Source: Candidatus Tanganyikabacteria bacterium
Lineage (GTDB): Bacteria; Cyanobacteriota; Sericytochromatia; S15B-MN24; VGJW01
Assembly (NCBI GenBank): GCA_016867265.1
Contig: VGJW01000005.1
Location: 62,001-126,000 of the forward strand
Reading direction: 5' to 3'
Length of the DNA stretch: 64,000 nt
Within the stretch, counting starts at the first letter, position 1. Every line of letters begins with the position of its first letter. Made by a program: the position numbers and the translations under genes. Positions 8,060-20,052 of the stretch are shown one piece after another. Below the pieces are notes generated by a model. The model worked only from the letters and a program-made list of their open reading frames with translations, was not told the DNA's origin and searched no databases.

Positions 8060-9220
8060 TTGGCCTTCAACCCCCTGAACCGGCTGGGAGGCGGCGGACT
8101 GGATTCCGCGCTGACCCGCACGGGCTCGGCCGTGGGCGGCCGGGGGGGCAGTCAGCCGGATCCGGCCATCGACGCCAATGCCAAGTCCCCGTCGTGGACG
8201 GCACTTGGCCGTACCGGAGCCGCGGATCCTTCCCTCGAGGCGGCTGCGCGTCAGAAGCCCTCTGGCCCCACGTGGTTCGGCTACCACAACGATTCGTCCA
8301 TCCTCGCGCGGCTTGCCCAGCAGGGCGTCGCCCCCACTCCCGTCCACCTGCGCATCGCGCAGCAGATGCTGCGCTACGGCGTGCCCTTGCAGCCGACCAA
8401 CATCGAGCAGATCCGCGCCCTGTGGCAGGCGCTGGGTGGCAGTTCGCTCGTCGACCTCGAGGCGCTGACGGCCCTGTTTGCCGCAGGCCTGCCCACCGAG
8501 CCGGACAACTTCAAGGCCATGGCACGCCTCCTGGCAGGGGGGCCGACGGCCCATTTGCTGGCGCGGACCGCCATGACGCTGCGTACAGCCGGTCCGGCAG
8601 GCCCGCAGGCCGAGGCCCTCAAACAGTCGCTGCAGGCCTGGTGGAAGCTGGGCAACGGGCCGGAGCTGCTGGCTACCGAGATGCCGCAATTCCAGCAGGT
8701 CGCGACACGCATCCGCCAGCAGGTGACGACCCTGGCCGCGGCGCGCCTGCCCGAACCACTGGCACAGGATGTGCAGGCACTTGGCGAGCACTTCAGGGCC
8801 CACGAGATGCTACAGCGGACGCCACAGAACACGCTCTACGTCCCGTTCTTCCAGTGGCGGGACCAGCAGCCCCTCCCGGGCGAGATCCTGATTCACGCCG
8901 ACAGGGAAGGTGGGGCCGAACGTCGCGCGCAGTATGCCCAGGTCACCATTGCCATCGACACGCGCAATCTCGGGCGCATCACAATCGATCTGACGGCGAG
9001 CAGGGGGCACCTCGGCATCGGCTTCGAGGTCCAGGATGCCCAGATCAAGGCCTTCTTCGATGCGCGAACCGGAGAGCTGGGCAGGCGCATCGGTCCGCGC
9101 ACGGGCTATGTGCTCGCCGGCATGCGGGTCGATGCCGTGGGCAACGGGCGCAGCATTTCGATTCTGCTTCCCCGCCGCAGGGACCTGCGGCGGTTGTCAC
9201 GAGCCGTGGGGGTCCTGTGA
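8060..9220 (+). CDS. FliK-like flagellar hook-length control domain protein
   Basis: 386 residues from a TTG start with AGGAG seven bases upstream. The N-terminal 250 residues are helical and not recognisable. The C-terminal part (about 265-375) has the pattern of the Flg_hook domain at the end of FliK proteins: a strand-rich block LGRITIDLTASRGHLGIGFEV followed by a helix with FFDARTGELGRRI. Two facts of context agree: the next gene is a FlhX/YlqH-like protein, as in the Bacillus ylqG-ylqH pair, and all following genes are flagellar. I therefore read it as a FliK/YlqG-type protein, possibly a hook- or rod-length regulator. The assignment rests on fold pattern, not on strong identity. Confidence 0.6.
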   Translation: MAFNPLNRLGGGGLDSALTRTGSAVGGRGGSQPDPAIDANAKSPSWTALGRTGAADPSLEAAARQKPSGPTWFGYHNDSSILARLAQQGVAPTPVHLRIAQQMLRYGVPLQPTNIEQIRALWQALGGSSLVDLEALTALFAAGLPTEPDNFKAMARLLAGGPTAHLLARTAMTLRTAGPAGPQAEALKQSLQAWWKLGNGPELLATEMPQFQQVATRIRQQVTTLAAARLPEPLAQDVQALGEHFRAHEMLQRTPQNTLYVPFFQWRDQQPLPGEILIHADREGGAERRAQYAQVTIAIDTRNLGRITIDLTASRGHLGIGFEVQDAQIKAFFDARTGELGRRIGPRTGYVLAGMRVDAVGNGRSISILLPRRRDLRRLSRAVGVL

Positions 9221-9447
9221 AAGGCAACCGTCCCGACGATGATGCCCTCTGGAATAGCCTGGCGCAGGTCGCCGAGGCCTACGGGGCGCCTCCGGCCGAA
9301 GCAGCGGCGCTGACGCGGGTGCTCGGTCAGTTGGACCCTCGGGCCGTGCCTCCCGAGCTTGCCGCCGCCGTGGCGGAGACGCTGGGGTTCGTCTTTGCGC
9401 TGGATCAGCAGGTCGAAGTCTCCGGGACGAAGGAGGGGCGTCGATGA
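9217..9447 (+). CDS. FlhX/YlqH-like protein (free FlhB C-terminal domain homologue)
   Basis: 76 residues from a GTG that overlaps the previous stop (GTGA). The core reads IPPELYxAVAE-like (VPPELAAAVAETLGFVFALDQ) after a helix ending in a PAEAAALTRVLGQLD segment, which is the pattern of the small FlhB cytoplasmic-domain homologues found next to fliK-like genes. FlhB_C controls the switch in export substrate specificity. A free copy could act with the full FlhB, which is not in this window. The NPTH autocleavage motif is absent, as is usual for these short homologues. Confidence 0.7.
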   Translation: MKGNRPDDDALWNSLAQVAEAYGAPPAEAAALTRVLGQLDPRAVPPELAAAVAETLGFVFALDQQVEVSGTKEGRR

Positions 9448-10175
9448 TTCGCGGTATCTACACGGCTGCCTCCGCCATGCAGCTCAACACGCACATGGTG
9501 GACGTGATGGCCGACAACCTCGCCAACTCGGCGACGACGGGCTACAAGCGCAAGGAAGCAGTCGTCCGGTCCTTCGGTGACGTTCTCGTCGACCTGACGG
9601 GCGATGCCGAGCCGGGCCGCGTCCAGCTGGGCGCCCAGATCGACGAGGTGGCCCGGGATGGCAGGGCGGGCAGTCTCCGGCGTACCGACGGCCTGCTGGA
9701 CGTGGCCGTCGAGACCGATGATCACCAGATGCTCGCGCAGCGCGCCGATGGCACGCGGGTCTTCACCCGGAACGGTCAGCTCAGGATGGACGCGGATCTG
9801 TACCTGGTGACCAGCAACGGGGATCGGATCCTCGATGCGGGGCTGGTACCCATCGAGCTGCCCCAGGATCTGACAGGCCTCAAGATCGAGGCGGATGGTA
9901 CGGTTCGCGGGTCGGAGGGCGTGCTCGGACGCATCGGCCTGTTCACCCCGTCCGTCGCGCAGCTCGCCGCCTTTCCCGTCGCGCTCGGCGCACTCCTGCC
10001 GGCCGAGGGCGGCCGCTTGCAACAAGGCTTCCTCGAGTCCTCGAACGTCAACATCGTCACCGAGATGATGGGGTTGATCGAGGCAAATCGGCACTTCGGC
10101 CTCGGGCAGAAGCTGGTCACGGTGCACGACCAGTTGCTCCAGAAGGCCAGCAATGACCTTGGCCGTACCCAGTAA
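9444..10175 (+). CDS. flgF: Flagellar basal-body rod protein FlgF
   Basis: 243 residues, with the N-terminal rod motif (ADNLANSATTGYKRKEA) and the C-terminal FlgE/F/G motif (LQQGFLESSNVNIVTEMMGLIEANRHF). It is exported through the flagellar type III apparatus and builds the proximal rod. It overlaps the upstream flhX-like gene by 4 bases and is followed by flgG after 27 bases. FlgF rather than FlgE is indicated by its length and by being directly upstream of flgG. Confidence 0.9.
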   Translation: MIRGIYTAASAMQLNTHMVDVMADNLANSATTGYKRKEAVVRSFGDVLVDLTGDAEPGRVQLGAQIDEVARDGRAGSLRRTDGLLDVAVETDDHQMLAQRADGTRVFTRNGQLRMDADLYLVTSNGDRILDAGLVPIELPQDLTGLKIEADGTVRGSEGVLGRIGLFTPSVAQLAAFPVALGALLPAEGGRLQQGFLESSNVNIVTEMMGLIEANRHFGLGQKLVTVHDQLLQKASNDLGRTQ

Positions 10176-10202: not shown

Positions 10203-10982
10203 ATGATGCATTCGATCTGGACCGCCGCGACCGGTATGCAGGCGCAGCAGATGCGCATTGATGCCATCGCCAACAACCTGGCGAACGTCAACACCACCTC
10301 GTACAAGAAGAGCCAGGTGGACTTCCAGGACCTGCTCTACCAGGCCGTCCAGGCGCCGGGTGTCGAGACGGCCGGCATGCAGGTCGGCCTGGGCGTCCGG
10401 CCGTCGGCCATCTCCAAGTACCACGCCCAGGGCAACTTGCAGGTCACCAACAACCCGCTGGACGTTGCCATCGACGGATTCGGCTTCTTCCAGGTGACGA
10501 CGACGGATTCTCGGGTGGTCGGCAACACGGCCTACACTCGGGATGGTTCCTTCAAGATCAACAATTTCGGCCAGCTCGTCACGTCCTCGGGCCTTGTTGT
10601 CCAGCCCGAAATCAACCTGGGCAGCGCGACGGACGTGCGCATCCGGGAGGACGGCGCCGTGTTCGGTCGTATCGCCGGAACCGGGCCCGTCACGGAGTTG
10701 GGAGCCCTCCAACTCGTCAGCTTCCCGAATCCCGCAGGCATGATGTCGATCGGGAACAACCTCTATATGGCCACGGACGCGGCCGGGCAGAGGACGGGGC
10801 CGGCCGCCGGCGGATCCGTCGGCATGGGGCGTGTCGTCCAGGGAGCCCTCGAGGCTTCGAATGTCGAGCTCGTGACCGAGATGGTCATGATGATCGCCAC
10901 CCAGAAGGCTTATGACACCTCTTCAAAAGCCATCAATGTGTCCGACAAGATGATGGAGTCGACCAACGGCCTCATCCGGTAG
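10203..10982 (+). CDS. flgG: Flagellar distal rod protein FlgG
   Basis: 259 residues, the standard length. N-terminal motif ANNLANVNTTSYKKSQVDFQ, and C-terminal motif VVQGALEASNVELVTEMV with a final heptad-rich helix. FlgG forms the distal rod, which passes through the P and L rings encoded by flgI and flgH downstream. A clear GGAGG ribosome site precedes the ATG. Confidence 0.97.
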   Translation: MMHSIWTAATGMQAQQMRIDAIANNLANVNTTSYKKSQVDFQDLLYQAVQAPGVETAGMQVGLGVRPSAISKYHAQGNLQVTNNPLDVAIDGFGFFQVTTTDSRVVGNTAYTRDGSFKINNFGQLVTSSGLVVQPEINLGSATDVRIREDGAVFGRIAGTGPVTELGALQLVSFPNPAGMMSIGNNLYMATDAAGQRTGPAAGGSVGMGRVVQGALEASNVELVTEMVMMIATQKAYDTSSKAINVSDKMMESTNGLIR

Positions 10983-10993
10983 GAGTCGGAAAC

Positions 10994-11734
10994 GTGAGCA
11001 GCATGCGTGCATGGGGATCTCGAGGGGTGGCTGCGGCCGCCCTCGCCCTCCTGCTCGCCTGGCCATCACCTGTGGCAGCGCGGACCCCGATCGGTCGGAT
11101 CGCCGTCGACATGGTCCGTGCCGCACTTCAGGTCCAATACCCGGCCGGGGAGATCGAGGTCCGGCCCCTGCTGCCCGAGGTCGCGAGCCTGGTGCCCAAG
11201 GGCACGGTCGATGCGACGCTGCGCCTCGCCGGCCCCATTCGCCAGTTGGGGCCTTCCGTGCCTGTGTCCTTCGACGTGATGGACGGTACCGGACGCAAGG
11301 TCGCATCCGTGGTTCCCCGGTTCGCAGTCGAGGCTTGGCGCAACCTGCCTGTGCTGGCCCATCCCATGGAACGCGGGGTCGCTCTGGCTCCGGCGGACAT
11401 CGAGATGCGTCGTCTGGCCCAGAGCCGCGTGACGGGACCCGTACTGCTGGATGTCGGGGCCTTGATAGGGGCCAAGCTGGTGCGCAGCCTGGCGAGCGGC
11501 AGCGTGCTCATCACGAATGTGCTGGACCTGCCGCCCGTGGTGCGTCAGGGGGCTACGGTCCGCGTTCACGTCCGCTCTGGCGGACTCGAAGTGCTCGGTC
11601 AGGGCACCGCCTTGCAGGATGGTCGTGTCGGGCAGGTCATCCGCATCGTCAACCCCTCGTCCCGAAAGGACTTCCTGGCGCGCGTCCGGAATGCCGAGGT
11701 GGTCGAGATGGACCTCGGGGAGGATTTGGAATGA
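10994..11734 (+). CDS. flgA: Flagellar P-ring chaperone FlgA
   Basis: 246 residues from a GTG with AGGAG upstream. A signal peptide ends near PVAA|RTP. The C-terminal half is a SAF-type domain (AGPSHG-like LAHPMERGVALAPADIEMR, then LIGAKLVRSLASGSVLITNVLDLPPVVRQG and VLGQGTALQDGRVGQVIRI). FlgA is periplasmic and assists FlgI polymerisation into the P ring; flgH and flgI follow directly. Confidence 0.94.
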   Translation: MSSMRAWGSRGVAAAALALLLAWPSPVAARTPIGRIAVDMVRAALQVQYPAGEIEVRPLLPEVASLVPKGTVDATLRLAGPIRQLGPSVPVSFDVMDGTGRKVASVVPRFAVEAWRNLPVLAHPMERGVALAPADIEMRRLAQSRVTGPVLLDVGALIGAKLVRSLASGSVLITNVLDLPPVVRQGATVRVHVRSGGLEVLGQGTALQDGRVGQVIRIVNPSSRKDFLARVRNAEVVEMDLGEDLE

Positions 11735-12360
11735 GTCGCAGACTTCTTGCGCTGGCGCTTATGGTGCTCGTGTCGTTTGCCCCCGCGCTTGCGGCCCGGG
11801 CCGACTCGCTGTTCCCGGATAGCAACTACGGCGGATTGATCAGCGATCAGGTGGGCGACCGGCGGATGGCCATCGGCCCGGGATCTCTGGTGACGGTCGT
11901 CGTGACCGAGAACATCCAGGCGGAACAGGCGGCAACGACGCGCACCATCAAGGACTCCAAGGTCACGTCGTCGTGGGACTTCGGTACGATTTTCGGGGCG
12001 GGCGCCAACAACCGGGGAGGCGCCTTCAACAACCAGGTCGAGATGGTCGGCAAGTCCGACTTCAACGGCGACGGTGTGACCCGCCGGGGGGGCGCCATCT
12101 CGATGCTGGTCGCGGCTCAGATCACCGAAATCCTTCCGGATGGCTCGATGCGGATCAAGGGCTCCAAGGAGCTTGTGGTCAACGACGAAAAGTCTACGGT
12201 CGTCATCTCGGGCGTCGTTCGTCCGTGGGACATCGGGATCGACAACCGCATTCCCAGCCAGCGCATCGCCGGCTTCCAACTCGAATACCAAGGGTCTGGC
12301 CCCAATACGGCCAAAACCACACCTGGCCTGTTCACCCGCCTGCTGAACTGGCTCTTCTAG
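11731..12360 (+). CDS. flgH: Flagellar L-ring protein FlgH
   Basis: 209 residues from an ATG that overlaps the flgA stop (ATGA). The family core is present: SLVTVVVTENIQAEQAATTRTIKDS, SMLVAAQITEILPDGSMRIKGSKEL, VVISGVVRPWDIGIDNRIPS. FlgH forms the ring in the outer membrane. Odd: the N-terminus is an ordinary signal peptide (cleavage near ALAARA|DS) with no cysteine, whereas FlgH is normally a lipoprotein. Confidence 0.96.
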   Translation: MSRRLLALALMVLVSFAPALAARADSLFPDSNYGGLISDQVGDRRMAIGPGSLVTVVVTENIQAEQAATTRTIKDSKVTSSWDFGTIFGAGANNRGGAFNNQVEMVGKSDFNGDGVTRRGGAISMLVAAQITEILPDGSMRIKGSKELVVNDEKSTVVISGVVRPWDIGIDNRIPSQRIAGFQLEYQGSGPNTAKTTPGLFTRLLNWLF

Positions 12361-12372
12361 GAACCTGCCACC

Positions 12373-13500
12373 TTGAGACAAGCCCACCCCGTCGCTGCGG
12401 TCCTCGCCTTGATCGCACTGGTGCTGGCGCCGGCCCTTCAGGCCCGGGCACAGGTCCTGCAAGGCAAGCCTGCCCGTCTCAAGGACATCGCCACGGTGTC
12501 CGGGGCGCGCTCCAACATTCTGCATGGCGTGGGCCTCGTCGTCGGTCTCGATGGCACGGGCGACTCGCAGACCACGGGATTCACCGAGCAGGCCCTGCGC
12601 AACTTCATCCAGGCTTCGGGCATGTTCCCTACGGAGCGTCTGAGGACCCGCAATATCGCCGTCGTGTCCGTCGACGCGCGACTGCCGCCCTTCTACAAGC
12701 CCGGCCAGACCATCGACGTCACGGTGTCTTCCATCGGTGACGCCCGCAGCCTGAACAACGGCGTCCTCATCCCGACGGCCCTCAAAGCTGCCGATGACAA
12801 GGTCTATGCCGTGGGGCAAGGTCCGCTGAGTACCGGTGGCTTCGGCATCGAGGCCAATGGCTCGCAAGTCAAGAAGAATCCGACGCTCGTCGCACGCATC
12901 CCCAACGGCGGCATCGTCGAGCGTGAGGTGCCCGTCACCGTGCTCGATGCCAATGGCTTCCTGTACATCAACCTCAACAACCCCGACTTCATCACGGCGT
13001 CACGCGCTGCCGCGGCAATCGGCCGTTCGTACCTGGGGTCGGCGCAGGCGCTTGATGCCGGCACCATCCGGGTCTACGTGACCAACCAGTATCGGGACAA
13101 TCTTGTCGACCTCGTGGCGCGTCTCGAGGGCCTCGAGGTCGCACCCGACGCCGTGGCGCGGGTCGTGGTCGAGGAGCGTACGGGTACGGTCATTCTGGGC
13201 TCCAACGTCAAGATCGATCCCGTGGCGATCAGCCACGGTGGCCTCATCATCAAGGTCGAGACCAAGTTCAACGTCTCGCAGCCGAACCCTCTGGCCGGGG
13301 GCCAGACGACCGTGACCCAGGAGTCCCAGGTCTCGGCCGAAGAGCAGAAGGCCAAGGCCGTCATCTTCGACAAGGGGACGACGCTCGGGACCCTGGTGCG
13401 GGCGCTCAATGCCCTCGGCACCACCTCGCGCGATCTCATCACCATCCTGCAGAACATCAAGGCAGCCGGTGCGCTCAACGCCCAGCTGGAGATCATCTGA
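12373..13500 (+). CDS. flgI: Flagellar P-ring protein FlgI
   Basis: 375 residues from a TTG start. The signal peptide ends at ARAQ. Hallmarks include RLKDIATVSGARSNILHGVGLVVGLDGTGDS and TTLGTLVRALNALGTTSRDLITILQNIKAAGALNA. FlgI forms the ring around the rod at the peptidoglycan layer. Twelve bases separate it from flgH, and its stop overlaps the next ATG (TGATG). Confidence 0.97.
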   Translation: MRQAHPVAAVLALIALVLAPALQARAQVLQGKPARLKDIATVSGARSNILHGVGLVVGLDGTGDSQTTGFTEQALRNFIQASGMFPTERLRTRNIAVVSVDARLPPFYKPGQTIDVTVSSIGDARSLNNGVLIPTALKAADDKVYAVGQGPLSTGGFGIEANGSQVKKNPTLVARIPNGGIVEREVPVTVLDANGFLYINLNNPDFITASRAAAAIGRSYLGSAQALDAGTIRVYVTNQYRDNLVDLVARLEGLEVAPDAVARVVVEERTGTVILGSNVKIDPVAISHGGLIIKVETKFNVSQPNPLAGGQTTVTQESQVSAEEQKAKAVIFDKGTTLGTLVRALNALGTTSRDLITILQNIKAAGALNAQLEII

Positions 13501-13943
13501 TGCAGGTCCCCCCTCCTCCCGGCCTGCCCCCGTCCGGCTACCGCAAGGCCCCGCCGTCTGTCGCCACCGGGCTTCCGGATCCGCTCCAGGGTTCGCTTCC
13601 GCCGGTCCTGCCCCAGCAGGTCCAGCTGGCTGGCGGACTGCCGCTCGTCTCCACTTCGGAGGCTACCCAGGGCACCACGGTCGGACCGACCAACCCCGAG
13701 GAGGCGGCCAAGGCGTTCGCAAGCATTCTTTTCGGGTACATGTTTGCGGAGATGCGCCCCAAAGAGGAGGACAGCCTGCTGGGGGGCGGGGACACCGAGA
13801 TGTTCATGGACTTCTTCGACCAAGCGATGGCCAGGAACTTCGTCGATCAGGGCAACCCCCTCGTCGACCTGATCGTTGATCGCCTGACGCCCAGAGAAGC
13901 CGGCAAGACGGAAACGGGCAAGGGAGAAGCCGGACCCTCATGA
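13500..13943 (+). CDS. flgJ: FlgJ-type rod-cap protein (rod-binding domain only)
   Basis: 147 residues. A proline-rich N-terminal half is followed by the FlgJ rod-binding domain (EEAAKAFASILFGYMFAEMRP, then GGGDTEMFMDFFDQAMARNFVDQG). The C-terminal muramidase domain seen in enteric FlgJ is absent, as in many other phyla, so peptidoglycan opening must come from a separate enzyme. Placed after flgI as usual, with a one-base overlap. Confidence 0.88.
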   Translation: MQVPPPPGLPPSGYRKAPPSVATGLPDPLQGSLPPVLPQQVQLAGGLPLVSTSEATQGTTVGPTNPEEAAKAFASILFGYMFAEMRPKEEDSLLGGGDTEMFMDFFDQAMARNFVDQGNPLVDLIVDRLTPREAGKTETGKGEAGPS

Positions 13944-14662
13944 GCGACAAGCGTGCCACGATGCCGGGCTCCAAGGGGGCACCGGCGCTCGATGCCGCGC
14001 AGATCAAGAAGTACGAGGGTCTGGTCCGCAGCATCGCCCGCAAGCAACTCGGGAAGCTGCCCCAGCATTACGAACTCGAGGAACTGATCGCCGACGGCTG
14101 GATGGGCCTGATGATGGCCCACGATCGCTTCGACCCGGAGCGCGGTGTCAAGTTCGAGACCTTTGCCACGTACTACATCCGTGGTGCCATGCTCGACAAC
14201 CTGCCCAAGCTCCCGAAGCCCCCGAAAATCAGGGGCGAGAAGCCCGCGGAGGTTCCGGAGGGCGCCCCCGCCGAGGGTGATGACGAGGGCGAGGCAGCCC
14301 TCATGGTCAACCGCGTCACGGAACTGGCCTACAGCTACCTGCTTTCGCTCGACGATCCCGCCGGTGGCGACGGGGATGACGGGTACTCGCGACTCGATCA
14401 ATTGGGTCGCTGGGACAACAAGCAGAAGGAACTCGAGGAGCAGGACCTTCATCGCATCCTGAAGCTCACGATCCAACTGCTTGAAGACCGCGAGCGCATC
14501 ACGCTCGAGAACTACTACTTCAAGAACATGAGCTTTGCCGAAATCGGCGAGATGCTGGGCCTTTCAGAGTCCTGGGTCAGCCGTATCCACCGGCGCGCAC
14601 TCAGTCAGGTGCGTCAGAAACTGGGCAAGAAGAAGTCGATTGACGACTTCATCAGCTGGTAG
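13940..14662 (+). CDS. fliA: FliA/WhiG-type flagellar sigma factor (sigma-28)
   Basis: 240 residues. Region 2 is clear (HYELEELIADGWMGLMMAHDRFDPERGVKFETFATYYIRGAMLD) and region 4 carries the helix-turn-helix MSFAEIGEMLGLSESWVSRIHRRAL. Between them lies an unusually acidic, alanine/proline-rich stretch (about residues 95-150, PAEVPEGAPAEGDDEGEAA) in place of a well-conserved region 3. It lies inside the flg operon with a 4-base overlap to flgJ. It probably directs late flagellar genes; no anti-sigma FlgM gene is seen nearby. Confidence 0.88.
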   Translation: MSDKRATMPGSKGAPALDAAQIKKYEGLVRSIARKQLGKLPQHYELEELIADGWMGLMMAHDRFDPERGVKFETFATYYIRGAMLDNLPKLPKPPKIRGEKPAEVPEGAPAEGDDEGEAALMVNRVTELAYSYLLSLDDPAGGDGDDGYSRLDQLGRWDNKQKELEEQDLHRILKLTIQLLEDRERITLENYYFKNMSFAEIGEMLGLSESWVSRIHRRALSQVRQKLGKKKSIDDFISW

Positions 14663-14676
14663 GACTGGAGGACAAG

Positions 14677-15078
14677 ATGGACCTGTTCGGCAAGGAAGTC
14701 CGCGGCCTCGAGCGGGCGATGGATGGCTTGTCAAGGCGCATGGAGGCGACGGCCCTCAATCTTGCCAATGTTCATACGCCCGGTTATGCGCGCCGGGACG
14801 TGAAGTTCGAGGATTCGCTCGCCGAGGTCCTTGATTCGATGGAGGTGCCCATCGATCCGGAGCGGTCCGAGGCGCCCGAGGATACCTCGTACCTGATCGA
14901 GCAATGGCAACCCCGTACCGAGGTCGATGAGCGTCGTCCCCAGCGTCTGGATGGAAACGGCGTGGTGCTCGAGAAGGAAGTCTCCGCCGCCACGCAGGCC
15001 GCCTTGCGATTCAACGTGCTGGCGACCAGCCTTGCCGCGGACTACAGGGATCTCAAGTTCGTCATCGACGCCAAGTAG
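14677..15078 (+). CDS. flgB: Flagellar basal-body rod protein FlgB
   Basis: 133 residues. N-terminal rod helix with ATALNLANVHTPGYARRDVKFE and a C-terminal helix (ATQAALRFNVLATSLAADYRDLKFVI). It forms the proximal rod with FlgC, FlgF and FliE. A strong terminator follows, so flgB is the last gene of the first flagellar transcription unit although flgC is the next gene. Confidence 0.94.
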   Translation: MDLFGKEVRGLERAMDGLSRRMEATALNLANVHTPGYARRDVKFEDSLAEVLDSMEVPIDPERSEAPEDTSYLIEQWQPRTEVDERRPQRLDGNGVVLEKEVSAATQAALRFNVLATSLAADYRDLKFVIDAK

Positions 15079-15210: not shown

Positions 15211-15609
15211 ATGAGCCTGATGAACGTCTTCAATACGGGGGAGAGTGCGCTTGCGGCCAACCGCATGTGGCTCGAGGTCATCGCGGGCAACCTGGCCAAC
15301 GCGCAGACCACCCGGACCGAGGAGGGGGGACCCTACCGACGCAAGGTCCCGCTGTTTTCCGAGGTCCTCGATGCCGAGATCCAGGGCGTCCGCGTGTCGG
15401 CCATCGAGCAGGACCAGAGTCCCCTCCAGCGTGTCTACAAGCCCGGGCATCCCGATGCTGACAAGGACGGTTTCGTCAGCATGCCCAACGTCAACGTCGT
15501 GACCGAGATGGTCGACATGATTGGTGTGCAGCGCAGCTATGACGCCAACGTCACCGTGATGCAGGCCATCAAGTCGATGGCCAACAAGTCCATGGACATC
15601 GGGAGGTAA
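15211..15609 (+). CDS. flgC: Flagellar basal-body rod protein FlgC
   Basis: 132 residues from the ATG at 15211, which has GGAGG upstream; longer in-frame extensions to 15121 lack family similarity. Motifs: VIAGNLANAQTTRTEEGGPYRR at the N-terminus and GFVSMPNVNVVTEMVDMIGVQRSYDANV at the C-terminus. It is the first gene after the flgB terminator, followed by fliE after 3 bases. Confidence 0.96.
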   Translation: MSLMNVFNTGESALAANRMWLEVIAGNLANAQTTRTEEGGPYRRKVPLFSEVLDAEIQGVRVSAIEQDQSPLQRVYKPGHPDADKDGFVSMPNVNVVTEMVDMIGVQRSYDANVTVMQAIKSMANKSMDIGR

Positions 15610-15612
15610 CGG

Positions 15613-15990
15613 ATGCGTATCGACGGGTTCCGTGCCCCGGGTATCGGTCAGGCTCTGGGTGGTTTTCCCGCGTTCGGAGATTTTCCGGCCATGCCGGATG
15701 CGCTCTCGGCCGACAGCAAGATGCCGTCCGTCACCGATTCCTTCGGGGCAAGCGAGGATGATGGTCCGGGAGCGCACTTCATGGCCGTGCTGAACGATGC
15801 CATCGACTCGGTGAATGCGCAGCAGAATCGTTCGGAGCAGATCACGATGGACTTTGCCCTGGGCAAAGCGGTGGACCCGCATGCCGTCATGATCGAGAAC
15901 GCCAAGGCAGAGACGCTTGTCCATCTCACCAGCAGCGTTACCAACAAGATGGCGCAGTCGTTCCAGACCTTGATGAACCTCCAGATCTGA
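15613..15990 (+). CDS. fliE: Flagellar hook-basal body complex protein FliE
   Basis: 125 residues. The C-terminal half carries the FliE pattern (FMAVLNDAIDSVNAQQNRSEQ, then DPHAVMIENAKAETLVHLTSSVTNKMAQSFQTLMNLQI). FliE joins the MS ring (FliF, next gene) to the proximal rod. The N-terminal 50 residues are Gly/Pro-rich and not conserved. Confidence 0.93.
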   Translation: MRIDGFRAPGIGQALGGFPAFGDFPAMPDALSADSKMPSVTDSFGASEDDGPGAHFMAVLNDAIDSVNAQQNRSEQITMDFALGKAVDPHAVMIENAKAETLVHLTSSVTNKMAQSFQTLMNLQI

Positions 15991-15997
15991 TCGCGGC

Positions 15998-17932
15998 ATG
16001 GGCTTCCTGCAAAATCTGACCCCCCAGCAGCGTATCGCCTTGCTGGGCGGCGGCGCCGGCTTGGTGCTGCTGTTGGTGGTGGCCATTGCCTTTGCGGTGA
16101 TGTCTGGAGGCAAGAAGGAAGATCCCCAGGCACGGGAGCAGGAGTCGGGCTACGAGGTGGTCTTCAAGTACCTGCAGCCCAAGGAAATGGATGAGGCTGC
16201 GGCTGCACTCAAGGCCCAGAAGATCAGGGAGTTCAAGTTCACGGAGGACGGCACCCTTCTGGTCCAGAAGGACAAGGTCGTCGATGCCCGGGTCGCCCTC
16301 GGCGAGGCGCAGGTTCCCAAGAACCCCAACAACCAGGGACTCGAGATCTTCAACAAGAAGGACTTCATCTCGACGGATTTCGACAAGAAGATCGCTTTCC
16401 TTCGGGCGCTCAACGGCGAGTTGACCCGGCTGGTGCGCAAGGTGCAGGGCGTCGATGACGCCACGGTTCTTGTGAACATGCCTGAAGACACCCTCTTCCA
16501 GCAGGAGAAGAAGGCCATCACGGCGAGCGTCATGGTCAAGATGGAATCCAATCGCCAGTTGACGGCCCAGCAGGTCGAGGGCATCCAGCACATGGTGGCT
16601 TCGGCGGTGCCCGGCCTGCTGACCGATAACGTCACGGTCGTGGACGACCAGGGCAACCTGATCTCGAGCGGTCTCGAGACGAACATCGGGGACAACAACG
16701 AGCGCTTGGTCTCGCGTGCCATCGACCAGCAGATGAAAATCACGCGGTCGATGGAGAGCGAGATCCAGACCAGTTTGCAGTTGTTGCTGGACAAGCTCGT
16801 GGGCGCCGGCAAGTCCGTGGTCCGGGTACGCCTGGAGCTCGACTTCAACAAGCGGCAGGTCCGCAATCGCCTGCTCGCACCGGTCACGGCCAACGGCGAA
16901 CCGATGAGCAGCGCCCGTTCCGTCCAGCGCGAGACGCTCAAGAATGGGGCCCAGGGCGCCGCGCCCGGCACCACGGCCAATCTTCCGAGCTATCCGTTGC
17001 TTCCCGGCAATGTCGCCGGCCAGCCGGGCGTGGTCGGGTCATCGCAGGGCCAGGAAACCTCTCGCGAAAACATTCGGGAGCAGCCGGCATTCAACCAGGA
17101 AGACCAGATCGTCCAGACGGCCTCCGGCAACATCAAGCGCATGAGCATTGCCGTGTTGCTGCCGGAAACGGTGAAGCCCGAGGCCGTGGACAAGTTGCGC
17201 AACGTCATCGCGGCGGCAGCGGGTGCCGATCCGGCCCGTCGGGACCAGGTGACGGTCGAGCGCGTCAAGTTCGACACGACCCTGATGGACCAGCTCAAGG
17301 ATCAACTCAGCAAGAAGGAAGCCGAAGCGAAGGCCGCTGCCAAGAAGAAGGGGGCCGTCGGCTGGAACCTCGTCATCTGGGGTGGCGTCGCCGCCTTCGT
17401 GTTCGCGGCCATCGTCGCGCTGGTCTCCCGCCGCAAGCGGTCCACAGAGAATCCCTTCGATGTCCTGTCCTCGGGGCTCGATGCCGAGGCCTTGCCTGCC
17501 GGCTTCGAGGGGCCCGGCGCCCTCGGCGGCTTTCCGACGCCCGAGCAATTGGGTGCCTTGCCCGGCGGGATGCCCCAGATGGGCGGTTTCGATCAGGACC
17601 AGTCGGCCTACGGTGCCCAGGCGGCCTATGGCGCGCCCCAGCAGCAGGGTTATGGGGCCCAGCAGCAGGCCGCCGGGGAAGGACCCTTCGATTTCGCTTA
17701 CCAGGTCGGCCCCGAGCAGCTTGCCGAGGCACTCGCGACGGAGCGTCCGGCAACGGTGGCGGGCGTTCTGGCCCAGCTTGACCCCTCATTCGCCGAGACG
17801 GTCATCGCCAGCTTGCCGCCAGACATCCAGGGTGACGTCTTCAACCGCATGGGCTCCTCCGGGCCCCTGCCCTCGATGACGCAGCGCATGGTTTCCCAGA
17901 ATCTCAGGCGCAAGCTGGGGGTTCCGGTCTAG
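15998..17932 (+). CDS. fliF: Flagellar MS-ring protein FliF fused to a FliG middle-domain-like C-terminus
   Basis: 644 residues. A first transmembrane helix (about 11-33) is followed by the YscJ/FliF ring-building modules and the FliF C-terminal domain (FNQEDQIVQTASGNIKRMSIAVLLPE). The second transmembrane helix is at about 455-477. After it, instead of only the short FliG-binding tail, come a Gln/Ala/Gly/Tyr-rich linker (about 525-560) and a block at 563-644 that closely matches the FliG middle domain (PFDFAYQVGPEQLAEALATE, VLAQLDPSFAETVIASLPPD, RMVSQNLRRKL). The FliM-binding EHPQR motif of FliG reads ERPAT here, and the torque domain is missing. No separate fliG follows; flhA is next. Confidence 0.93.
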   Translation: MGFLQNLTPQQRIALLGGGAGLVLLLVVAIAFAVMSGGKKEDPQAREQESGYEVVFKYLQPKEMDEAAAALKAQKIREFKFTEDGTLLVQKDKVVDARVALGEAQVPKNPNNQGLEIFNKKDFISTDFDKKIAFLRALNGELTRLVRKVQGVDDATVLVNMPEDTLFQQEKKAITASVMVKMESNRQLTAQQVEGIQHMVASAVPGLLTDNVTVVDDQGNLISSGLETNIGDNNERLVSRAIDQQMKITRSMESEIQTSLQLLLDKLVGAGKSVVRVRLELDFNKRQVRNRLLAPVTANGEPMSSARSVQRETLKNGAQGAAPGTTANLPSYPLLPGNVAGQPGVVGSSQGQETSRENIREQPAFNQEDQIVQTASGNIKRMSIAVLLPETVKPEAVDKLRNVIAAAAGADPARRDQVTVERVKFDTTLMDQLKDQLSKKEAEAKAAAKKKGAVGWNLVIWGGVAAFVFAAIVALVSRRKRSTENPFDVLSSGLDAEALPAGFEGPGALGGFPTPEQLGALPGGMPQMGGFDQDQSAYGAQAAYGAPQQQGYGAQQQAAGEGPFDFAYQVGPEQLAEALATERPATVAGVLAQLDPSFAETVIASLPPDIQGDVFNRMGSSGPLPSMTQRMVSQNLRRKLGVPV

Positions 17933-17946
17933 CGGCCGGCTGACGC

Positions 17947-20052
17947 ATGCCGCAGCGCAAGGGGCTGATCCCCGATCTGATCCTGGCCGGGATCGTCATC
18001 CTGGTCTTGGCGATCCTGGTGATTCCGCTTCCTCTGTGGATGCTGGATCTGCTGCTGGTCATCAACCTGGTCGCGGCCCTCGTCATCGTCTTCGTCTCGT
18101 TGTACCTGGTCAGGCCGCTCGAATTCGCCAGCTTCCCGTCGTTGCTGCTGATCATGGCCCTGTACCGACTGGCCTTGTCGGTGGCCACATCCCGGTCGAT
18201 CCTGAGCCATGCCGAAGCCGGAAAGGTCATCGAGACCTTCGCCAACTTCGTCGTGGGTGGCAACTTCATCGTGGGTTTCATCCTGTTCGCGATCCTGATC
18301 ATCGTGAACTTCATCGTCATCACGGAAGGCGCAAAGCGCGTCGCCGAGGTCGCGGCCCGCTTCACTCTGGACGCCATGCCCGGCAAGCAGATGTCGATCG
18401 ATGCAGATCTTGCGGCAGGCCTGATTGATGCCGAGGGCGCCAAGAAGCGCAGGACCGACCTCGAGCGGGAGGCCAACTTCTTCGGTGCGATGGACGGCGC
18501 CAACAAGTTCGTCCGGGGCGATGCCATCGCGGCCATCATCCTGATCTTCGTCAACATCATCGGCGGCATCCTGATCGGCATCCTGCAGAAGGACATGGAG
18601 GTCGAGCAAGCGCTCAAGATCTATTCCTTGCTGACCATCGGCGATGGCCTCGTCGGCCTGATCCCGGGCCTGCTGATCTCGATCTCGGCGGGTTTCGTGA
18701 CGACCCGCGCCGCGTCGGACTTCAACCTGGCGACCGACCTGAAGAACCAGTTGTTTACCAGCCCCAAGGTCCTCGGCATCGTGGGCTTCGTCATCGTCAT
18801 GATGGGTTTCATCCCGGGCTTCCCGACGATTCTGATGCTGCTGCTGGGCCTCGCGATCCTCTTCGCGGCCTTCGTGGCCTACAGGGGTGGCTTGCTGGGG
18901 GCAGCGCCCGCATCCCAAGTCGGCGATGCCGCGCCGATGGGAGACGAGTTCGACGATTACCAACCGGAGTCCGACGAGGATCTGAAGAATCCCGAGAACG
19001 TCATGAAGATGCTCGGGGTGCCGCCGCTCACGCTCGAGCTTGGCCTGGATCTGGTGCCGCTCGTGGATCCCGGCTTGGGCGGCGAACTGATGGACCGTGT
19101 CGTACCCATGCGCGTGGCGATTGCTCTGGACCTTGGCTTCGTCATGCCCGGCATCCAGTTCAAGGACAACCTCAACCTGCGGCCCAATGCCTACCAGATC
19201 CTGGTCAAGGGCAATACGGTCGCCAGTGGCGAACTGCTCGTAGGCTACATGCTCGCCATCCAGCTCAACACGACGGACCTGTCTCAGGAGCTGGTCGGCT
19301 TCCCGACCAGCGACCCTGCCGGCAATCGCCCTGCCGTATGGGTGGCTGGTGCCGAGGCTCAGCGTGCCGCGCAACTGGGGTACCTGATCCAGGACCCGAC
19401 CAACGTGCTGACGGCCCACCTCGAGGAGGTGGTCCGCACCCACGCCCACGAGATTCTCAGCCGCGAAGAGGTCAAGATGATGCTCAACCGGCTGCAGGAG
19501 CGGGCGCCCATCACGGTCAAGGAGCTGGTGCCCGAGGTGCTCGCACTGGGCGAGGTGCAGCGTGTGCTGCAAGCCCTGCTGCGCGAGCGGGTCAGCATCC
19601 GCGATCTGGCGACCATCGCCGAGAAGCTGGCGGACTTCGGCAAGATGACCAAGGATGTCTTCACGTTGACCGAGCTGGTCCGGCAGCAGCTGTCTCGGAA
19701 TATCTGCGGCTCGGTGGCCGACGAGGAGGGCCGGATCGACGTGATCACGCTGGACCCTGCCGTGGAGGGGGCGATCCAGCAGGCCATCCAGCCGGGGCCT
19801 CAGGGGCCGACCTTGGCGCTCAACCCGCAAATTGCCCAACTCATGCTGGCGCGCCTGGCCGGCGTCGTGAACGAGGCACTCGCGCGGGGGCAGAATCCGG
19901 CGGTGCTGGTCAGCCCGATTGTGCGGCCCCACGTCAAGAATCTGGTCGATCGCAACTTCCCGAACCTCTCGGTGCTGTCCTACTCGGAAATCAACGCCAA
20001 GTTCAAGGTCCAGGCCATCGGAGCCGTATCGATTGCGGTCGGGGCAGCCTGA
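17947..20052 (+). CDS. flhA: Flagellar export apparatus protein FlhA
   Basis: 701 residues, full length. The N-terminal half has about eight transmembrane helices and the FHIPEP region (FTLDAMPGKQMSIDADLAAG, then RREANFFGAMDGANKFVRGD-like sequence) at about residues 139-200. The C-terminal cytoplasmic domain (about 340-701), which docks chaperones and substrates, is complete. FlhA forms the proton-driven export gate ring inside the MS ring. It follows fliF by 14 bases and ends the plus-strand flagellar run. Confidence 0.97.
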   Translation: MPQRKGLIPDLILAGIVILVLAILVIPLPLWMLDLLLVINLVAALVIVFVSLYLVRPLEFASFPSLLLIMALYRLALSVATSRSILSHAEAGKVIETFANFVVGGNFIVGFILFAILIIVNFIVITEGAKRVAEVAARFTLDAMPGKQMSIDADLAAGLIDAEGAKKRRTDLEREANFFGAMDGANKFVRGDAIAAIILIFVNIIGGILIGILQKDMEVEQALKIYSLLTIGDGLVGLIPGLLISISAGFVTTRAASDFNLATDLKNQLFTSPKVLGIVGFVIVMMGFIPGFPTILMLLLGLAILFAAFVAYRGGLLGAAPASQVGDAAPMGDEFDDYQPESDEDLKNPENVMKMLGVPPLTLELGLDLVPLVDPGLGGELMDRVVPMRVAIALDLGFVMPGIQFKDNLNLRPNAYQILVKGNTVASGELLVGYMLAIQLNTTDLSQELVGFPTSDPAGNRPAVWVAGAEAQRAAQLGYLIQDPTNVLTAHLEEVVRTHAHEILSREEVKMMLNRLQERAPITVKELVPEVLALGEVQRVLQALLRERVSIRDLATIAEKLADFGKMTKDVFTLTELVRQQLSRNICGSVADEEGRIDVITLDPAVEGAIQQAIQPGPQGPTLALNPQIAQLMLARLAGVVNEALARGQNPAVLVSPIVRPHVKNLVDRNFPNLSVLSYSEINAKFKVQAIGAVSIAVGAA

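Follow-up and report, generated by a model that had tools for sequence, protein, structure and literature searches.

FliF proteins joined to parts of FliG are known both from nature and from the laboratory. Chlamydiaceae, non-flagellated bacteria that were described with few flagellar genes only (FliF, FliL, FlhA), encode a FliF of ca. 330 aa whose periplasmic part is shortened and to which the FliG middle domain is fused, and the author of that work suggested that this protein may bind SctQ, a homologue of FliM/FliN (PMC4768692). In Salmonella, FliF–FliG deletion fusions devoid of most of the N-terminal domain of FliG (FliG_N) build C rings and retain rotation (PMC7355467, PMC4768692). It has long been studied how the rings of FliF and FliG match each other and whether attachment of the C ring to the MS ring requires FliG. 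Here, we describe a fusion of FliF to the FliG middle domain (FliG_M), of a kind already known since its publication for Chlamydiaceae, from a genome of the Sericytochromatia, a non-photosynthetic class within the cyanobacterial phylum. The fusion protein, FliF2, is encoded in the window, i.e., the whole stretch of 64,000 nucleotides that was analyzed, and coordinates refer to this stretch unless another locus is named.

The MS-ring gene fliF2 (15998..17932, + strand) is one open frame of 644 aa that contains both FliF domains of Pfam, YscJ_FliF (residues 49–223, E=3.6e-49) and YscJ_FliF_C (residues 264–425, E=2.2e-25), and its product scores above the whole-protein cut-off for FliF (TIGR00206, 199.1 vs 129.75 bits). 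An earlier note on this DNA had read the last 82 residues as a FliG middle domain by eye, and profile searches bear this out: residues 572–640 (17711–17917) match Pfam FliG_M (PF14841) over profile positions 1–69 of 76 with 49.8 bits and E=3.9e-13 (gathering score 25), the match persists with the tail as sole query (E=2.5e-13), and residues 563–639 match positions 111–187 of the NCBIfam fliG model TIGR00207 with 29.5 bits, far below the 226.7 bits of the whole-protein criterion for a FliG with N, M, and C domains. MgtE_N, tried as another identity of the tail, was rejected at 15.4 bits in Pfam. A profile of the tail also matches FliG structures in the PDB with E-values down to 9e-14, and its AlphaFold model is all-helical and confident (mean pLDDT 88.6). 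The top Foldseek matches of this model are all FliG_M (TM 0.67–0.81 to the query, probability 1.00, with E-values of only 6e-3 and up for so short a domain), and the best of them is 4fq0_C, the FliG chain of the FliG–FliM complex of H. pylori (TM 0.77/0.84).

Sequence comparison and predicted fold hence confirm the tail as FliG_M, and together with its conservation they place the fused domain at 17684..17929 (+ strand, residues 563–644). It had previously been called truncated, which is not the case because coverage runs to the natural C-terminal end of FliG_M; what FliF2 does lack are the other parts of FliG, FliG_N and FliG_C, and the absence of the torque domain was thus recognized correctly. 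As also described before, the domain follows the second membrane helix of FliF2 and a Gln/Gly/Tyr-rich linker, which, judging from FliF topology, would put linker and tail on the cytoplasmic side. The linker (17444..17678, + strand, residues 483–560) is poorly conserved. The EHPQ(R/T) motif that contacts FliM is indeed altered, reading ERPAT in most families, EKPQS in one genome, and ERLPT in families f5 to f7, as compared to EHPQT in 12/12 of the separate FliG proteins (FliG1) of the class.

Like the chlamydial protein, FliF2 occurs naturally and ends, on the cytoplasmic side, in a FliG middle domain with neither FliG_N nor FliG_C. Unlike its chlamydial counterpart, it retains the YscJ_FliF and FliF_C domains and is encoded in a near-complete flagellar operon beside a second full flagellar system. 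NCBIfam NF004606, which we regard as a model of the chlamydial-type fusion because it matches both FliF2 and FliG_M, gives FliF2 no more than 36.8 bits, below its cut-off of 297. The Salmonella mutants share with FliF2 the direct joining of FliF to FliG, once without most of FliG_N, but they are laboratory constructs that keep FliG_C and rotate, whereas FliF2 arose in nature and lacks FliG_C. As far as our searches show, with a genome scan that covered the Cyanobacteriota, this is the first full-length FliF with FliG_M that lies in a near-complete operon, occurs class-wide, and stands beside a canonical system; among 13 papers naming both Sericytochromatia and flagella, no title mentions flagella.

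Searching 386 genomes of the phylum with the tail profile recovered the fusion in 16 of the 18 Sericytochromatia genomes, across seven families and including all high-quality ones (9/9), and in none of the 368 others (0/368), where the remaining matches were ordinary FliG-sized frames or weak. The two Sericytochromatia genomes without the fusion are 87% and 73% complete. The tails of the 16 genomes align without gaps. Of the two options raised by the earlier note, a natural fusion of MS ring and C ring is well supported. The tails form one clade (support 96/92), as do the FliF2 proteins versus FliF1 (support 100/100), which points to a single origin of the fusion; relative to FliG1, the tails find no resolved position in an 87-column tree with long branches. 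Within FliF2, the tail is the best-conserved segment (mean pairwise identity 0.58, zero gaps), ahead of the ring-building domain (0.49), and the linker between them appears free to vary (0.22, with 38% gaps).

The fusion gene is the penultimate member of an operon on the + strand. It is preceded, in this order, by a fliK-like gene with a Flg_hook domain (8060..9220; PF02120 E=8.9e-5, 22.7 bits, below the Pfam cut-off of 29.8), the rod gene flgF2 (9444..10175) and the distal rod gene flgG2 (10203..10982), both with a Flg_bbr_C match in frame and a place in the conserved operon, then flgA (10994..11734), flgH for the L ring (11731..12360), and flgI for the P ring (12373..13500), all three named from sequence and conserved operon position, and a flgJ-like rod gene assigned by its conserved position (13500..13943). 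These are followed by a gene for a FliA/WhiG-like sigma factor (13940..14662; Sigma70_r2 2.1e-15, Sigma70_r4 3.7e-13, but with 130.9 bits below the TIGR02479 cut-off of 189.6), the rod genes flgB2 (14677..15078; named by homology and conserved position, with the start codon set by eye) and flgC2 (15211..15609; Flg_bbr_C match in frame, orthologues in the conserved operon), and fliE2 (15613..15990; PF02049 E=8.1e-19). Downstream of fliF2 there is no fliG, fliH, or fliI, as had been noted; the next gene, within 14 bases, is flhA2 (17947..20052; FHIPEP E=8.7e-241), which encodes the export gate and lies 3' of fliF2 wherever the contig runs on. The order of the whole operon is unchanged across the class wherever the contig is long enough.

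The window genome encodes two FliF proteins only, FliF1 and FliF2. FliF1 belongs to a canonical flagellar system (system 1) on contig C15, where its gene is followed by those of a full three-domain FliG, FliH, and FliI in a cluster that also encodes FlgB, FlgC, FliE, FlgD, FlgE, MotB, FliL, FliM, FliN, FliP, FliR, FlhB, and FlhA, while contig C16 contributes FlgF, FlgG, FlgK, FlgL, a FliW-like protein, CsrA, and homologues of FlhF and FlhG (named from sequence). The genome thus does contain the separate fliG that the earlier note had envisaged, on another contig and in a different flagellar cluster. No flgA, flgH, or flgI is present in the system 1 clusters (C15, C16; L008, L021, L190), and the only copies seen in the window genome are those of the fliF2 operon; the cells are probably two-membraned. 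A second cluster, on contig C19 and with a core conserved across the class, encodes FlgD2, FlgE2, a FliM-like protein, a membrane-SpoA protein, FliN2, FliO, FliP, FliQ, and FliR. Based on co-occurrence, homology, and complementary content, the fliF2 operon and the C19 cluster, which sit on at least two contigs, appear to specify one machine (system 2) with genes for rod, hook, P/L rings, export gate, and FliM/FliN-like ring proteins; neither cluster shows fliH, fliI, or a full flhB.

System 2 shares with the canonical switch of system 1 a FliF core, the FliG_M fold, and FliM-like and FliN-like ring proteins. In system 1, however, FliG is a separate three-domain protein bound via the C-terminal helix of FliF, and FliM carries an N-terminal EIDAL motif and GGPG. 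Nonflagellar type III secretion systems (SctJ/SctD with SctQ) resemble system 2 in having a cytoplasmic ring protein of the FliM/FliN type without FliG, but FliF2 differs from SctJ by its flagellar FliF_C domain (SctJ score of 68.8 bits, below the cut-off of 162) and is encoded together with rod, hook, and P/L-ring genes.

We propose that Sericytochromatia have a second type III machine, flagellar in type and inherited vertically, in which FliF2 builds the MS ring and the FliG_M at the C-terminus of FliF2 stands in for FliG. About 30 FliF2 subunits in a ring would thereby display a further ring, of FliG_M domains, at the cytoplasmic face; this would bind the FliM-like protein of system 2 directly and the FliN-like proteins through it, resulting in a cytoplasmic ring that serves substrate delivery and assembly and does without a FliG subunit. 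We assign a probability of roughly 0.62 to this reading, drawn from sequences and models, that the fused domain replaces FliG and docks the FliM/FliN ring of system 2 directly on the MS ring; as a role for the fusion, such docking is better supported than the fixing of rotor stoichiometry that had been considered before.

This reading gains support from the nature of the tail, which is FliG_M by sequence and fold, fixed in the class, more conserved than the rest of FliF2, and apparently of single origin. It is further supported by the fact that FliF1 proteins end in a conserved FliG_N-binding tail (…QEVARLVRTWMLED) that the fused domain has supplanted in FliF2, where a profile of the FliF1 tail gave noise-level matches only, even with filters off, and by the occurrence of FliG_C just once per genome in the good genomes G003, G006, and G016, namely in the FliG adjoining FliF1. 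The candidate partner argues in the same direction: the FliM-like protein, encoded beside the membrane-SpoA protein, FliN2, and fliPQR in the class, matches FliM1 with 98.7% probability, its model matches FliM of the Salmonella C-ring (E=5e-15) and also the FliM chains of FliG–FliM complexes, and the N-terminal EIDAL motif of FliM1 is absent from it. That a join of this kind is workable can be seen from the Salmonella fusions, given that these build C rings and rotate without most of FliG_N. What weakens the docking reading is that the contact motifs differ on both sides, since FliF2 deviates from EHPQ(R/T) and the GGxG expected of the FliM-like protein from the sequence of the window genome is not kept in its relatives, so that any contact between the two would have to be remodelled. 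It is likewise weakened by the spread of the system 2 genes over separate contigs and by the possibility that system 2 uses the membrane-anchored FliG of families f1 and f3 or the second FliG of f5 and part of f7.

The latter concern leads to an alternative in which the fused FliG_M stacks with a separate FliG, be it that of system 1, the membrane-anchored one, or the second one, which would bring in the torque domain and give mixed rings with normal rotation. A full FliG1 in most genomes of the class, the additional FliG proteins of f1, f3, f5, and part of f7, and the wide occurrence of a second MotAB pair, f6 included, would suit such an arrangement. We nevertheless consider it unlikely, and the extra docking module for a separate FliG that the earlier note had offered as its other option is disfavoured with it: FliF2 has no FliG_N-binding tail, FliG1 is encoded together with FliF1 as part of a different, complete flagellar system, the membrane FliG of f3 is encoded beside a MotAB pair of its own and a FlgO-like protein rather than with system 2, G003, G006, and G016 have FliG1 only, and two f6 genomes with system 2 genes (74% and 87% complete) show neither FliG_C nor flagellin.

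Less probable still is that the tail merely stabilizes or spaces the MS ring via contacts between FliG_M domains and binds no C-ring protein. The altered FliM-contact motif and the unconserved GGxG of the FliM-like protein would agree with this, but a segment that is the most conserved of its protein, has no gaps, and follows a linker free to vary is in keeping with a flexibly tethered surface for binding a partner, and system 2 encodes FliM-like and FliN-like proteins of its own. An artefact, i.e., an assembly error or frameshift that joined fliF and fliG or a decaying pseudogene, has nothing in its favor other than the oddity of the join and can practically be dismissed. The ungapped alignment of the tails from 16 genomes rules out chance and frameshift as their origin, the same join recurs across these seven families in frames of 611–657 aa that are always without stops, FliF2 shows purifying conservation, and flhA2 follows closely in the window.

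If docking of the FliM/FliN ring on the fused domain is direct, as we favor, MotA would not drive the ring of system 2 by the known mechanism, because FliF2 has no FliG_C and a dedicated FliG is not found in several families. It is conceivable, though we hold this only tentatively, that system 2 is a flagellum-shaped, non-rotary type III machine that has rod, hook, and P and L rings, a FliM/FliN ring on the fused FliG_M of its MS ring, and no torque ring; equally tentative is the corollary that such a non-rotary machine is kept alongside a normal rotating flagellum throughout the class. System 2 may also rotate, given that the second MotAB pair is widespread (also in f6) and that family f2 has flagellin-like genes directly behind flhA2 (L191:1409-2398; L192:7498-9462), where system 2 may therefore export filament protein. 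With two rings fused by evolution and the torque domain dropped, in a complete flagellar operon and a phylum far from Chlamydia, FliF2 suggests that the scaffolding and torque roles of FliG are separable, and its tail and the FliM-like protein form a defined pair for testing this separation. It also means that two flagellar machines are retained in a class of the cyanobacterial phylum that is not photosynthetic.

We note some further proteins with FliG, MotB, or SpoA domains in these genomes. The membrane-anchored FliG of the window genome (L009:9643-11718, - strand, contig C20; relatives L212, L213, L214) begins with an N-terminus resembling a signal peptide, weak similarity to FliF_C, and a single membrane helix, and continues with FliG_N, FliG_M, and FliG_C. 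Only families f1 and f3 have it, and the gene of the f3 version lies together with those of a TPR protein, a FlgO-like protein, MotA, and MotB, which suggests an envelope machine driven by MotAB and separate from the flagellum; owing to this distribution and the own MotAB in f3, the C20 protein was downgraded as a candidate for the FliG of system 2. The second FliG of f5 and part of f7 is very divergent (L143:9257-10324; L144:9352-10422; L145:6121-7119) and only 24–28% identical to FliG1. Three MotB-type proteins are encoded in the window genome (G000:C3:61071, G000:C10:106349, G000:C15:44199), and one MotAB type recurs class-wide, including the f6 genomes that show no FliG_C. The membrane-SpoA protein of the C19 cluster (L022:8025-9404, + strand) has several predicted membrane helices followed by a C-terminal SpoA (FliN-type) domain and is matched over its whole length by no named family; this protein and its relatives (in L148-L159), from 459 to about 700 aa long, adjoin the FliM-like protein and FliN2 class-wide.
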